From positions 1-64,000 of the forward strand of contig NZ_AQPH01000005.1 in the NCBI RefSeq assembly GCF_000442515.1: a DNA stretch of 64,000 nt, read 5' to 3'. This document shows, one piece after another, positions 7,099 to 12,549 of the stretch. Source of the DNA: Magnetospirillum fulvum MGU-K5. GTDB lineage: Bacteria > Pseudomonadota > Alphaproteobacteria > Rhodospirillales > Magnetospirillaceae. A program made the position numbers and the translations under genes. Position 1 is the first letter of the stretch. Every line of letters starts with the position of its first letter. Below the pieces are notes generated by a model, which was not told the DNA's origin, ran no database searches, and saw only the letters and a program-made list of their open reading frames with translations.

Positions 7099-8919
7099 TT
7101 AATACACCATCGTGCTCATGGTGATGTCTTCCCACACCTGCTTGACCGTCAGCGACATTTCAACCGCCCGCTCGGTGTAATAGGTGTGGAGCAGGTGGTG
7201 GGCCTTTTCAGAAAAGGGCCGTTCCAGGAAGTCGCGATAGAGCGCCTGGACCTGCGGGTTGTTGTGCGATTGACGGACAGCGGTGGCGCGGTCGATCGCA
7301 AACAGGGTCTCGCGCCGCTTCAGGGCAAAGGGCAGATAGGCCTTCTTCGAGCGCAGATTGCCGCCGCCATCGACGCAGCCGCCGGGGCAGGCCATGATCT
7401 CGATGAAGTCGAAATCGGCAGTACCTGCCCGAACCGCCTCGCACAATTCGCGGGTCGGGCGCAGGCCGTGGCACATCGCCACCTTGACCGTGCCGATCTT
7501 GCCGCCGACCTCGATGGTGGCGGTCCGCGCCCCGTCGAAGCCGCGCAACTGGGCCAGTTCGATCTGGGGCAATTCGCGGCCATTGGCGATCTGATACATC
7601 GTCCGCACCGCCGCTTCCATCACGCCGCCGGTGGTGCCGAAGATCGCTCCCGCGCCGGAATAGGCGCTCATATACGGATTGTCGAACACCGACGGTTCCT
7701 GGCTGCGCAGGTCGATGCCCTGACGCTTCAGCAGACGGGCGAACTCGCGGGTGGTCAGCACCACGTCGATCTCGGCGATGCCGTTTTCGCTCAGTTGCGG
7801 CCGGACCCGCTCGTCCTTCTTGGCGGTGCAGGGCATGATCGAGATCACCCGGATGCGCGCGGGATCGATCCCCATCCGTTCGGGCAGGTAGGTCTTGGCG
7901 ATCTTGCCTAAACATTGCTGCGGCGATTTGGTCGAGGACAGCAGCGGCAGCAGATCGGGATAGTGACGCTCGGCGAAATTGATCCAGGCCGGGCAGCACG
8001 AGGTGAAGGTCGGCCGCCGTTCCCCGGCGAGGCGGCTCAGCAATTCGGCACTTTCCTCCATCACCACCACGTCGGCGGCGAAGTTGGTGTCGAGCACGAT
8101 GTCGGCGCCCAGACGGCGCAGCGCGCCGATGATCCGGCCTTCGACATTGGTTCCGGCCGGCAGGCCGAATTCCTCGCCAAAGCCGACCCGCACCGCCGGA
8201 GCGAACTGGAAGACGGTGACGATCTCGGGATCGAACAGCAGGTCGAGCACCAAATCGGTTTCATCACGCTCGCCCAGCGCTCCGGTCGGACAGACCATCA
8301 CGCACTGGCCGCAGGTGACGCAGCTTGAGTCTTTCTGGCTGAGACCGTGATGCAGCCCGATCGACGAATCGTTTCCGGTGCCGGTGACCACCAGCGCATC
8401 GACGGTCTGGCCGTCGCGGCAGATCGTGACGCAGCGCTGACAGCGGATGCATTTGGTCATGTCGCGGATCATCGCCGGAGATGATTCGTCGATGCCGCGT
8501 CCCAGCGTCCGGGTCCGGTCGAAGAAGCGGTTGGTGTGCAGCCCGACATATTGGGCGATGTCCTGCAACTCGCAATTGCCGTGGCGGACGCAGGTGGCGC
8601 AATCCTGATTATGGTCGGCCAGCAGCAATTCGACCTGGAGCCGCTGTGCCTCGCGGACCCGGCGGGTGCGGGTGCGGATATTCATCCCCTCCTGCACCGG
8701 GGTGGTGCACGAGGCGACCAACTGAGCCGCCTCGCGGCCGGGCTGGTCGATTTCGACCATGCAGACCCGGCAGGTGGCGGGGGCGTGGTCGATGTCGTTC
8801 ATCTCGCACAGGGTCGGGATCGGCACGCCGTGGCGGCGGGCGCAGGCCAGAATGGTTTCCTGGGCCTCGGCAGTGACGGGGCGGCCGTCCAACGTGGCGG
8901 TGACGGTTTGGCTGGTCAT
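7099..8919 (-). CDS. [FeFe] hydrogenase, catalytic subunit (probable group A2)
   Basis: A 606-residue [FeFe] hydrogenase. In order: an N-terminal plant-type [2Fe-2S] domain (about 1-80); a His-ligated [4Fe-4S] site HNQDCATCVRHGNC (about 105-118); two [4Fe-4S] motifs, CIRCQRCVTIC and CVTCGQCVMVCPTGA (about 155-215); and the H-cluster domain with all three signatures TSCCPAW, MPCTAKKDE and IMACPGGCVDGGG. A small-subunit-like C-terminal tail closes it. The four H-cluster cysteines are intact, so it should be catalytic if maturases HydEFG exist elsewhere; none are in the window. The adjacent GltD-like fusion points to a glutamate-synthase-linked (A2) type. The enzyme is rare in alphaproteobacteria, and no signal peptide is seen. 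Confidence 0.93.
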   Translation of the reverse strand: MTSQTVTATLDGRPVTAEAQETILACARRHGVPIPTLCEMNDIDHAPATCRVCMVEIDQPGREAAQLVASCTTPVQEGMNIRTRTRRVREAQRLQVELLLADHNQDCATCVRHGNCELQDIAQYVGLHTNRFFDRTRTLGRGIDESSPAMIRDMTKCIRCQRCVTICRDGQTVDALVVTGTGNDSSIGLHHGLSQKDSSCVTCGQCVMVCPTGALGERDETDLVLDLLFDPEIVTVFQFAPAVRVGFGEEFGLPAGTNVEGRIIGALRRLGADIVLDTNFAADVVVMEESAELLSRLAGERRPTFTSCCPAWINFAERHYPDLLPLLSSTKSPQQCLGKIAKTYLPERMGIDPARIRVISIMPCTAKKDERVRPQLSENGIAEIDVVLTTREFARLLKRQGIDLRSQEPSVFDNPYMSAYSGAGAIFGTTGGVMEAAVRTMYQIANGRELPQIELAQLRGFDGARTATIEVGGKIGTVKVAMCHGLRPTRELCEAVRAGTADFDFIEIMACPGGCVDGGGNLRSKKAYLPFALKRRETLFAIDRATAVRQSHNNPQVQALYRDFLERPFSEKAHHLLHTYYTERAVEMSLTVKQVWEDITMSTMVY

Positions 8920-8920
8920 G

Positions 8921-10921
8921 TCAGGCCGCTCCTTCCGGGATGGGCTGTTCGGTAATCACCGAATAGATGCGGTAGCAGCGCATGCAGCGTCTGGCTTCCC
9001 GGTAGGCGTCGGCGTCGGAGATGGTGGTCTCGACCTCTTCGAACATGGTGCGGCGGACTTCGGGGTCGAGTTCGGGATGGTGGACCCGGTATTCGAGCCG
9101 CACCGGCAACTCGACGCAATCGGCGGCCAGCAATTTGTGTTCGTTCAAAATCTGGCGCATCCGCGAGCGCGGGAAGAAGCGGGTGTATCCCCGCTGGATA
9201 TAATCGTCGATGCTGCGCGCCGCCTTCAGTCCCGCTGCCATCGCATGGATCAGGGTCGAGGGGCCGGACACGCAATCGCCGCCCGCGAACACACCGGGGC
9301 GCGAGGTGGCCAGATCGGTGGGGGCCGCCTCGATACAACCCCAGCGGGTCATCGTGACGCCGTCGGTGGGACCGACGACGCCTTTGCGCACTTGCTGCCC
9401 GATCGCCGAAATCAGAACAGAGCATTCCATCCGCCGTTCCGATCCGGGGACCGGCTCGACATTGCGCCGCCCCTTGGCATCGATCTCGGTCTGGCGCATC
9501 GAGACGACGTCCAGACCGACGACGCGCCCGTTCTCGTGGATGATCTTCGCCGGATTGGTCAGGAAGTGGACGATCACCCCTTCGGCCTCGGCGGCCTCGA
9601 TTTCCTCGTGATCGGCGGGCATGTCCTCGCGGGTGCGGCGATAGAGCAGGTGGACCCGCTCGGCCCCCATCCGCAGGGCGGAGCGGACGCAATCCATCGC
9701 GACATTGCCGCCGCCGACCACCACGACATCGCCGCACAGACGGGTCAGACGGGTGCCCGCGATGTGGTCGTGCACCTTGAGCAGAAAGCCGATCCCGGTT
9801 TCATAGCCCAGCGCCGAGGAATCCTCGTCGGCGACGCCCATCGGCGTCCCCTGCTGACAGCCGAGCGACAGGAACACCGAGCGATAGCCCCGCTCGAACA
9901 GGGTGTCGATGGTGAAGTCCCGGCCCATCGCCTGGTTGAACAGGAACCGCCCGCCCAGCGCCAGGATGATGTCGGTTTCCGAGCGCAGCACGTCCTTGGG
10001 GAGGCGATAGCTGGGGATGCCGATTGCCGCCATGCCGCCCGGCTCAGCCATCGCTTCCAGGATATCGACGTGATAGCCGTGCAAAAGCAGGTGATAGGCA
10101 CAGGAAATCCCGGCCGGACCGCCGCCCACCACCGCCACCCGCATCTCGGGCGGATGGGATGAGGCGATCAGATCGCGCGAAAACCGCAGCGCGTTCGGTC
10201 CCTTCTGATGATCGGCGACATAGCGCTTCAGGATCTTGATGCCCACCGCCTCGTCGACGAGGTTGCGGCGACAGGCCATCTCGCAAAAGCGGACGCAGAC
10301 CCGGCCGCAGGTCGCGGCCATCGGGTATTTCTGCAAGATCACGCCCAGCGAATGTTCGGGCTTGCCGTCGCGGATGTAATCGATATAGCGCGGTACGTTG
10401 ATCTTCGACGGACAGGCCTCGATGCAGGGCGCGGTCATGTAATCCATGCCGTGCTGCACCGTTCGCGCCGCGCCCGAGGCGATCTCTGCTTCGATCACGT
10501 CGCGGAAATGGGTCAGCGCCGCCAACAGAGCGATCGGCGTCGTCCGCCCCAGCCCGCACAGCGAGGTCTCGGCCATCTGCCGCCCCAGCATCGCCACGGT
10601 GTCCAGGTCGAGCGGCGCCGATTCGCCCGCCGCCAGCGCCGCCAGCGATTCGCCGATCAGCGCGGTGCCCATCCGGCAGGGGGTGCATTTGCCGCAGGAT
10701 TGTTCCTCGGCCTTGGCCAACTGGCGGCGCAGCGCGTCGAGCAGACTGACGGTGCGGTCGAAGATCAGGAAGCCGCGATCGCCGAAAAAGGCGCGGATCG
10801 GATTACCCGGATTGAATTCGCCAAATCCGGCCAGGCTGGGGAACAAGGAGCTGGCATCTCCATCGCCGTTGCGATGGTCGATCACCGCGCCGTCCCAGAT
10901 TCCATAAACGATTGTCGCCAT
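8921..10921 (-). CDS. NuoF-tail/GltD-like fused flavoprotein oxidoreductase, hydrogenase partner
   Basis: A 666-residue electron-transfer partner for the hydrogenase. Residues about 50-160 match only the C-terminal [4Fe-4S] part of NuoF (SCGKCTPCR, later SLCGLGR); the FMN/NADH-binding half is absent. A GltD-like unit follows: CIEACPSKINV and CGRVCVRFCEMAC cysteine clusters, an FAD motif VAVVGGGPAGISCA (about 260), an NAD(P) motif VVVVGGGNVAMDC (about 400), and a late CMRC. It should shuttle electrons between NAD(P)H and the hydrogenase, directly or by bifurcation (inference). I chose the ATG at 10921 (MATIVYG), preceded by GGGGGA. One base separates its stop from the downstream gene's leader. 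Confidence 0.88.
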   Translation of the reverse strand: MATIVYGIWDGAVIDHRNGDGDASSLFPSLAGFGEFNPGNPIRAFFGDRGFLIFDRTVSLLDALRRQLAKAEEQSCGKCTPCRMGTALIGESLAALAAGESAPLDLDTVAMLGRQMAETSLCGLGRTTPIALLAALTHFRDVIEAEIASGAARTVQHGMDYMTAPCIEACPSKINVPRYIDYIRDGKPEHSLGVILQKYPMAATCGRVCVRFCEMACRRNLVDEAVGIKILKRYVADHQKGPNALRFSRDLIASSHPPEMRVAVVGGGPAGISCAYHLLLHGYHVDILEAMAEPGGMAAIGIPSYRLPKDVLRSETDIILALGGRFLFNQAMGRDFTIDTLFERGYRSVFLSLGCQQGTPMGVADEDSSALGYETGIGFLLKVHDHIAGTRLTRLCGDVVVVGGGNVAMDCVRSALRMGAERVHLLYRRTREDMPADHEEIEAAEAEGVIVHFLTNPAKIIHENGRVVGLDVVSMRQTEIDAKGRRNVEPVPGSERRMECSVLISAIGQQVRKGVVGPTDGVTMTRWGCIEAAPTDLATSRPGVFAGGDCVSGPSTLIHAMAAGLKAARSIDDYIQRGYTRFFPRSRMRQILNEHKLLAADCVELPVRLEYRVHHPELDPEVRRTMFEEVETTISDADAYREARRCMRCYRIYSVITEQPIPEGAA

Positions 10922-11067
10922 AAATCCCCCTTGGTCCCAGCCCATTATCCCCCCGGATACGGTACCAGGATTTCCTCTAATCATGGATCAGGGGCCGGGT
11001 TCTGTCCATCGGCGACGGGTGGGGGAGCGGCTGGCTCTCCTCCCCCCTCCTTCGGGTGGGAACCGGC

Positions 11068-12549
11068 TTAGCGGGCGAGGATGCTGGCAGCATCCTTGGT
11101 TTTGCCGACGGCGGATTCGATTTGCTGGATGCTGGCGCTGATCGTCGCGACCGTCCGGGAAATGGTATCGACCGAGCCCGCCGCATTCTGCATATTGCCG
11201 GACATGTCGCGGGTCACCGCGCTTTGCTCCTCGACCGCCGCCGCCGTCGCGGTGACATGATCGCGAACGGTTCCGATCGATTGGCGGATGACGCCGAGCG
11301 AGGACACCACATCGTTCGAGATTGCCTGAATCCCTTCGATTTCCGCGGAGATCTGCTCGGTGGCGCGGGCGGCTTGGTTCGCCAGATTCTTGACCTCTCC
11401 CGCCACGACGGCAAAGCCCTTGCCCGCATCGCCCGCGCGGGCGGATTCGATGGTGGCGTTCAGCGCCAACAGATTGATTTGCCCGGCGATGGTCTGAATC
11501 AGCCCGACGATCCCGCCCATCGCGACCGCAGCCGCCGACAGGCGCTGCGCCGAATCCCCGGCCGAGACCACCTGATCGAACGCGCCATCGGTCGCCGTCT
11601 GCGATTTGGTCATGCTCTGGGAAATCTCGGTGATCGAGGCGGCCATTTCCTCGGCGCTGGCGGCCATCAACTGGACGTTGCCGGAGGTTTCCATCGCGGC
11701 GGAACTGGCGGTCGCGGTTTCGGTCGTCGATTGGGTGACGGCCTGATCGATCTCGGCAAAATTGACATCGATCAGCGTTTTCAGTTGGCCGAGCAGGGCG
11801 ATTTGTTTGGTGATATCAGTGGCGAATTTCACCACTTTGACCGGCTTGCCATCGGCATTTAAAATCGGGTTGTACGAACCTTCGATCCAGACTTCGCGCC
11901 CCCCCTTGCCGATCCGGCGGTATTGGGCGGCCAGAAACTCACCCCGCTGCAACGTTTCCCAGAACACGCGGTACTCCTGGCTGGCGCGATAGGCGGGATC
12001 GACGAAGATTCCGTGATGCTTGCCGACGATTTCGGCAAGGTTATAGCCCATCGCTTTCAGGAAGTTGTCGTTGGCGGTCAGGATCGTCCCGTCCATCTTG
12101 AACTCGATCACCGCCTGGGATTTCATGATGGCATTGTACTTGCCGACAAGGTCGAGATAGTGCTCTTTTTCCTTGGTTACGTCGGTTGCGTATTTAACGA
12201 TTTTTGTCGGCGTGCCGTCCGGTTTCAGGATTGGATTGTAGGCGGCTTCGAGCCAGATCACGCGGCCATCTTTGGTGATGCGCTTGAATTGGCCCGACTG
12301 ATATTCACCGCGCCGTAATTTTTTCCAGAATTCAGTATAGTCGTTGCTGGCGCGATACGAATCGTCGACGAAAGCCCTGTGGTTTGTCGCAAGGGCCTCG
12401 GCAAGAGAATATCCCATCAGAGTGAGGAAATTCTCATTCGCCGAAATAACGTTTCCGTTCAAGTCGAACTCAACCCGAGCGTTCGATTTCTCCAGCGCCT
12501 GGATGATCGATTCGTTTTCGAGACTTTTCGCGTTCTTGAATGGAAACAT
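11068..12549 (-). CDS. Soluble methyl-accepting chemotaxis protein with two PAS domains
   Basis: A 493-residue chemoreceptor with no membrane helices. Two PAS domains (about 20-135 and 140-260) look like an internal duplication; both carry [21 protein letters not shown] or its counterpart, and YNPIL segments. The methyl-accepting signalling domain has the hairpin tip [20 protein letters not shown] near residue 365. This layout recalls Aer/BdlA-type redox or energy sensors, with heme or FAD possible ligands, though the binding residues cannot be fixed from sequence alone. No C-terminal CheR-binding pentapeptide is seen. It should signal to CheA/CheW in the cytoplasm. Confidence 0.92.

Follow-up and report, generated by a model that had tools for sequence, protein, structure and literature searches.

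A minimal two-gene [FeFe] hydrogenase with a NuoF-tail-GltD partner in Magnetospirillum fulvum MGU-K5, and its relatives with and without HydEFG

We examined the first 64,000 bases (the window) of a 93,945-base contig, NZ_AQPH01000005.1, from Magnetospirillum fulvum MGU-K5, whose genome is available as 3.77 Mb in 178 contigs. On the minus strand, positions 7099-10921 hold a two-gene unit: a partner flavoprotein gene (8921..10921) comes first and hydA (7099..8919) follows, with 1 base between the partner stop and the HydA start. A chance reading of these frames could be rejected, since the pair is kept in 15 other genomes.

Pfam domains and profile models identified HydA as an M3-type [FeFe] hydrogenase catalytic subunit of 606 amino acids. 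It carries a [2Fe-2S] domain (Fer2_4, 8665..8910), a NuoG-type His/Cys [4Fe-4S] region (PF10588, 8527..8643), a [4Fe-4S] dicluster region (Fer4 families, 8275..8472), the large-subunit H-cluster domain and, at the C-terminus, the small-subunit domain (Fe_hyd_SSU, PF02256, 7168..7323). All 16 N-terminal Fe-S ligands were checked alongside the three H-cluster motifs, which are present as TSCCPAW (L1, residues 306-312, 7984..8004), MPCTAKKDE (L2, residues 362-370, 7810..7836) and MACPGGC (L3 core, residues 509-515, 7375..7395). HydA passed the group A model TIGR02512 with 500 bits against a cut-off of 406, and the nearest solved HydA sequences were two HydA1 subunits (7q4v, 8a6t) and Iron hydrogenase 1 entries. 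An earlier interpretation of this DNA from its letters alone, the sequence-only reading, had credited HydA with every H-cluster motif and regarded it as a catalytic enzyme; both points stand, and the complete motifs rule out a NuoG-like non-catalytic paralogue. Judged by its motifs, its model score and the HydEFG maturases encoded in the genome, HydA is a group A [FeFe] hydrogenase.

The partner, of 666 amino acids, is a NuoF tail joined to a full GltD-like protein, as Pfam, a profile match, alignment and a structure model indicated and as had been proposed. The NuoF match is limited to model positions 309-410 of 410, the last quarter, and comprises the C-terminal [4Fe-4S] region with SCGKCTPCR and the CGLG cysteine (PF10589, 10487..10735). 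It is followed by a Fer4_20 domain (10202..10450), which keeps six cysteines in the patterns C-x3-CP and CGRVC-x3-C-x3-C, and by a Pyr_redox_2 oxidoreductase domain for flavin adenine dinucleotide (FAD) and NAD(P) (9230..10144), with GGGPAG, GGGNVAMDC and YRR motifs. An alternative in-frame ATG lies at 10984, but homology with 15 relatives starts at 10921, and an ATG or GTG stands at the equivalent position in 15/15 other clade members. In the structure model (predicted local distance difference test, pLDDT, 88.1), the best alignments of residues 146-661 were to GltD-type halves from Nfn-ABC and Stn (Z 47-50), with NfnI at Z 40. NuoF-type rows for the tail did not appear in this VIA-align comparison, a list that barely tests the tail.

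When the genome's own NuoE-NuoF fusion was used as a tblastn query against the window (E up to 1e-3), neither NuoE nor the NAD/flavin mononucleotide (FMN) half of NuoF was found; the only match, fusion residues 510-611 within NuoF, fell inside the partner. The predicted absence of NuoE and of a flavin-NADH half was thus borne out. A gap in the draft assembly was rejected as the reason, since the same structure occurs in the 15 other clade members.

The host had been described as a respiratory alphaproteobacterium, which is incomplete: the genome contains two photosynthetic reaction-centre genes, and the organism, a member of the Phaeospirillum lineage, is a purple phototroph. The absence of hydEFG had been named as a finding that would speak against a hydrogenase; HydE, HydF and HydG all scored over their cut-offs in this genome, on contig C67. 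They lie in a second hydrogenase locus (L005, 7249-16333) of the NuoEF type that encodes HydA2, the NuoE-NuoF fusion, HydE, HydF, an aspartate ammonia-lyase-like protein and HydG. The L1-type motif of HydA2 reads TSCSPGW, and a putative IS3-type transposase, recognised by eye, lies beside this locus at 5761-6847 of L005. Table 1 of PMC4967309 lists a comparable complement for Phaeospirillum molischianum, namely two M3 hydrogenases, CCG40656 and CCG42367, the latter with the NuoEF-type HoxS CCG42368, together with HydE, HydF and HydG. From that listing, CCG40656 is probably the orthologue of the window HydA; the main text of PMC4967309 makes no mention of GltD or glutamate synthase. Among the papers listed, judged by title and abstract start and with subscription papers mostly outside the search, we found none on this alphaproteobacterial unit with its GltD partner or on its maturase-less members.

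Related loci in other genomes were compared. The nearest named record for the partner, 94% identical, is from Magnetospirillum fulvum DSM 13234. Among 297 genomes of the order, HydA relatives (E<=1e-90) occurred in seven, five of which (G000, G180, G209, G212 and G053) carry the unit and two only another type. A scan of genome contigs with the partner alignment, from which the best 80 of at least 569 relatives were kept, gave 12 full-length partner relatives at 52-94% identity (L031-L042, with L031 being G180 again) in Rhodovulum, Blastochloris, other alphaproteobacteria, Desulfovibrionales, Desulfobulbaceae and Krumholzibacteriia. We refer to the set of 16 genomes carrying the two-gene unit as T1; four further Rhodovulum carriers were added later. 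The pair is intact in 16/16 T1 genomes, and no additional NuoE or NuoF match (E<=1e-10) was found in the available flanks of the 16 units, whose lengths vary, the stretch after hydA in L033 being just 921 bases. Gene calls in these loci came from a simple codon-usage script; HydA and partner starts in relatives were also chosen by script, the first residue being set to M. Reaction-centre genes are present in 8/16 T1 genomes, so that the clade is half, not purely, phototrophic. The G212 pair shares a cluster with hydE, hydG, aspA and hydF.

T1 formed a single clade with 100/100 support in the HydA tree and in the GltD trees. The HydA tree had 35 rows, including 17 HydAs of more distant, T2-type relatives that were picked by hand and for the most part run from the tblastn match instead of the true start. 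The first GltD trees used 23 of 39 extracted T2 proteins; a later one used 18 of those with two new ones and 13/16 T1 rows, three near-copies being omitted. In T2 a whole NuoF is fused to GltD, mostly in proteins of ~1000-1070 amino acids, and is accompanied by NuoE and then by HydA or a NuoG-like protein. T2 members such as L046, L049, L050, L055 and L058 resemble the unit in having a NuoF tail followed by GltD in one protein with HydA after it; they differ in keeping the NuoF flavin half and NuoE, and T1 is separate from them in both trees. The arrangement of NuoE, a single-chain full NuoF-GltD fusion and HydA was seen in Kiritimatiellota, Lentisphaerota, Spirochaetota, Bacteroidota and Clostridia (L046, L050, L055, L058, L061, L064, L199 and similar), and such hydrogenases seem, from their domains, to have one site for NADH and another for NADPH.

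The two-gene architecture is not unique to T1, as a clostridial counterpart exists. A partner-like match (E<=1e-85) was found in 74/391 genomes of Clostridia; four of these (G487, G387, G604 and G572) show it from about residue 70 onwards, in short frames of 616-634 amino acids. All four proteins are NuoF-tail-GltD and lie directly before HydA (L195-L198). Like the unit, they have a partner within ~610-670 amino acids (here 610-622) and the same domain order, and the stretches examined gave no match to NuoE or to the flavin half of NuoF; unlike it, their HydA is only ~40% identical and has another N-terminus, and DCAIG replaces CGLG around the fourth tail cysteine. T1 and the clostridial form each make their own clade (100/100), and a joint clade of the two was not rejected in the GltD tree (approximately unbiased test, p-AU 0.20). 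The truncated form may have arisen once or separately in each. From the description of Cthe_3004, we infer that L195-L198 are of that type. In C. thermocellum, Cthe_3003/3004 place HydA beside a GltD-like subunit and were proposed to form an NADPH dimer, and NADPH-dependent hydrogenase activity was 5-10x the ferredoxin- or NADH-dependent activity, as given in PMC3492117. A hydG and ech deletion in that species left no detectable H2, from which the authors concluded that hydG loss ends all [FeFe] hydrogenase activity (PMC4355364). By description, a similar case is Pelobacter carbinolicus HndD1 (Pcar_2502), which adjoins the SfrB-like Pcar_2503, its proposed NADPH-oxidising partner in PMC3543383.

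The sequence-only reading had filed the enzyme under group A2. As set out in HydDB, A2 is recognised by an immediately downstream GltA/GltD-type protein and no NuoF, and its role is given as undetermined. Here the partner is upstream and holds the NuoF C-terminus together with GltD, and the gene downstream of hydA is a COQ9-like one on the opposite strand, so the A2 filing did not hold. The unit also departs from the HydDB rule for A3 (HydABC), which calls for a NuoF flavin subunit and NuoE. It differs as well from Stn and Nfn-ABC, with which it shares the GltD-type half: as described in PMC7483475, those complexes have GltD fused to a NuoG-like protein, accompanied by NuoE and full NuoF-like subunits, and have no hydrogenase part. 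By its sequence, the unit belongs, as a variant, to a kind of hydrogenase that is known but ill defined. Because the partner is upstream and carries the NuoF tail, the HydDB neighbour rule can misfile such enzymes.

A lateral origin of the unit had also been suggested. Its patchy distribution (5/297 genomes of the order) suggests lateral movement, and tree shape is the only other feature in favour; composition gave this part of the claim no help, as the unit has a guanine-cytosine (GC) content of 0.65 and a third-position value (GC3) of 0.83-0.84, both equal to those of the window, and recent foreign DNA could be rejected on that basis. Within one genus, the neighbours of the unit in G209 (L022) are unlike those in G000 and G180, so that it has either changed place or been inserted independently.

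The pair is probably a soluble NADP(H):H2 oxidoreductase that does not bifurcate electrons. In such a complex, NADP(H) would bind the GltD-like half and exchange hydride with FAD; single electrons would then pass from the FAD-proximal [4Fe-4S] cluster of Fer4_20 to the NuoF-tail [4Fe-4S] cluster, the equivalent of complex I N3 and HydABC cluster B2, and on through the HydA [2Fe-2S] and [4Fe-4S] chain to the H-cluster. The NuoF tail would have been retained because it supplies both a docking surface and a wire to HydA. The H-cluster itself would be made by HydEFG from the second hydrogenase operon. On thermodynamic grounds, from the redox potentials of the two couples, H2 uptake yielding NADPH would be the likely direction in a phototroph, with H2 release serving as an overflow valve.

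Comparison with HydABC supports this path. The HydA of that complex has the same architecture as that of the unit, and PMC9499530 places the NuoF-tail cluster, B2, on the core route from FMN to the H-cluster and describes a B3/B4 domain in all characterised bifurcating enzymes. T1 keeps B2 and has the GltD FAD; the FMN half, HydC (NuoE) and the B3/B4 domain are absent. As the unit has lost NuoE, the ferredoxin clusters and the part of NuoF that holds NAD and FMN, neither NAD coupling nor bifurcation would be expected. It is nevertheless conceivable that the GltD FAD splits NADPH electrons between H2 and ferredoxin, as is thought for the NfnB-type FAD, which would make the pair a bifurcating or confurcating enzyme. 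Nfn-ABC and Stn, which are bifurcating complexes, have FAD/NADP halves that the GltD half resembles, and this speaks for such a role, but a second flavin half, the HydB C-terminal cluster domain and NuoE were not found and the canonical CxxC pair of Fer4_20 is missing, and we consider bifurcation unlikely.

A similar weighing applies to the nucleotide. The enzyme had been called NAD(P)H-dependent, of which the NADPH half is favoured by the NADP-type signature of GltD and the NADH half less so. HydA does reach 718.5 bits against the NADH-dependent A6 model NF040763, and the dimeric HydAB of Syntrophus is NADH-dependent according to PMC7311640. This score is, however, under the cut-off of 765, which HydA2 of the same genome passes (791.7 bits); moreover, NuoF has lost its NAD-binding half, and the GltD halves of 16/16 clade members keep the YRR motif. 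Use of NADH rather than NADPH is very unlikely.

Several points weigh against a working NADP(H):H2 oxidoreductase. The nucleotide preference depends on the YRR motif, which we take to bind the NADPH 2'-phosphate. None of the FNR, NifA, sigma-54, PpsR, Fur or RirA-like motifs, searched with patterns that we assume to represent them, occurred in the 300 bases upstream of the 16 units (expected <=0.5). Intact motifs are no proof of a working H-cluster, as maturase-less relatives show. Finally, the canonical first CxxC pair of Fer4_20 is missing in 16/16 T1 partners, leaving one cluster ligand set incomplete; StnC likewise retains 5 of 8 ligands, as reported in PMC7483475.

The most unexpected result of the analysis lies outside the window, in the distribution of the maturases. 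HydE, HydF and HydG all scored over their cut-offs in 8/16 T1 genomes; in G304, HydE and HydF are present and HydG is only a fragment in a 160-amino-acid frame; and in 7/16 (G053, G299, G300, G301, G302, G303 and G305) none of the three was over cut-off. In these seven genomes HydG gave no match at E<=0.001, HydE gave two weak matches, both in G299 and the better at 28.7 bits against a cut-off of 254.6, and HydF gave GTPase-domain matches only, of a kind also seen in 14/14 control genomes. In Rhodovulum, the genus of G302, a T1-type HydA is present in 7/16 genomes and HydG in 0/16. HydE and HydG were likewise absent from the four added Rhodovulum carriers (G314, G316, G317 and G319), where HydF was not searched. 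Two of these have the unit on contigs of 4.14 and 3.73 Mb in genomes of ~4.5 and 3.8 Mb; such near-complete contigs, with the absence of HydG throughout the genus, reject assembly gaps as the cause. On the HydA tree, maturase absence corresponds to three changes. Precedents exist: ProPhylo notes a small number of species that have [FeFe] hydrogenase genes and none of the three maturases, and hydA without hydEFG is noted in a heliobacterial genome paper and, for R. rubrum, in PMC4967309.

We asked whether HydA has changed where maturases are missing. All 11 maturase-less HydAs keep the cysteines of the three motifs and 10/11 tested active-site positions, whose roles we take from CpI; at the eleventh, S329, two of them have Thr, a residue also found there in two maturase-bearing relatives. 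The sole Ser-for-Cys change (TSCSP) belongs to Krumholzibacteriia, which has maturases. In the H-domain, 64 positions are invariant in 28 other HydAs, a reference set that includes T2 hosts whose maturases were not surveyed; all 11 maturase-less HydAs keep 61 of these, and the changes at the other three are T306S in three, G338S in seven and T389S in one. A further 139 positions are near-invariant in the 28; 13 of them differ in one or more maturase-less HydAs, and T365 is I or V in nine; I is also found there in the solved 8a6t enzyme.

These data bear on the alternative that HydA is no H2 enzyme in vivo, acting as an Fe-S electron relay or an NADPH-linked reductase in which the cysteines are merely kept. 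The 11 carriers without HydE and HydG, seven of them also without HydF, are what such a role would lead one to expect, and the ratio of nonsynonymous to synonymous substitution (dN/dS) of HydA is somewhat higher among them (0.08-0.23 in 24 maturase-less pairs vs 0.08-0.10 in four maturase-bearing pairs), which counts against an untouched enzyme. The same relaxation was seen in the H-domain (0.11-0.30 vs 0.06-0.09) and in the partner (0.19-0.35 in six maturase-less pairs vs 0.06-0.15 in four pairs), in a comparison that is weak because the lineages differ in more than maturases. Set against this are the maturases in the window's own genome, the 61/64 unchanged invariant positions and a departure from near-invariant H-domain positions of 0.156, close to the 0.147 of maturase-bearing alphaproteobacterial relatives. 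We regard a role other than H2 chemistry as quite unlikely for the window HydA. Among the maturase-less carriers, judged from their genes, either an unknown route may build the H-cluster or the protein may do something else. That the hydrogenase of this clade, whose H-cluster site is complete in Rhodovulum, Blastochloris and other alphaproteobacteria, works without HydEFG, through an unknown maturation route or by taking up the diiron part or a precursor from outside, is unlikely.

One neighbour would suit uptake. An SsuA/NMT1/PqqT-like ATP-binding cassette (ABC) importer lies directly after hydA in 9/20 loci (L024, L037, L038, L040, L042 and L159-L162), comprising 8/11 maturase-less vs 1/9 maturase-bearing loci, from few independent lineages; it is absent from the Blastochloris clade and from the window locus. 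As to its substrate, sulfonate families gave weak matches below cut-off, and the solved proteins nearest to its structure model were PqqT, SsuA and an ABC transporter protein from Parabacteroides. On the reading of maturation without HydEFG, the importer is a candidate accessory.

Other neighbours vary. Just upstream of the unit and on the same strand, a gene with PAS and methyl-accepting chemotaxis domains (11068-12549) could serve redox or energy taxis; it also occurs in G180 and is not found in G209. In G243, a phototroph of the same family as the host, a HydA-like protein lies beside putative Fe-S and [NiFe]-hydrogenase genes, recognised by eye (L026, 9070-10626), and the only HydG match in that genome is below cut-off.

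The role of the glutamate-synthase-linked A2 enzymes is given in HydDB as undetermined, and T1 is a minimal two-protein relative of them with a readable electron path. Because both redox ends lie inside two genes, direct tests of bifurcation and of nucleotide preference are possible. The unit is of interest for this minimal wiring and, more so, for a puzzle that concerns the whole family, in which intact [FeFe] hydrogenases occur without maturases. An old remark on maturase-less species gains a defined set on which it can be tested: one hydrogenase is shared by related phototrophs, several named type strains among them, of which some have HydEFG and others lack it. If maturation without HydEFG were true, the window's genome, with its HydEFG, would be the conventional end of that series.

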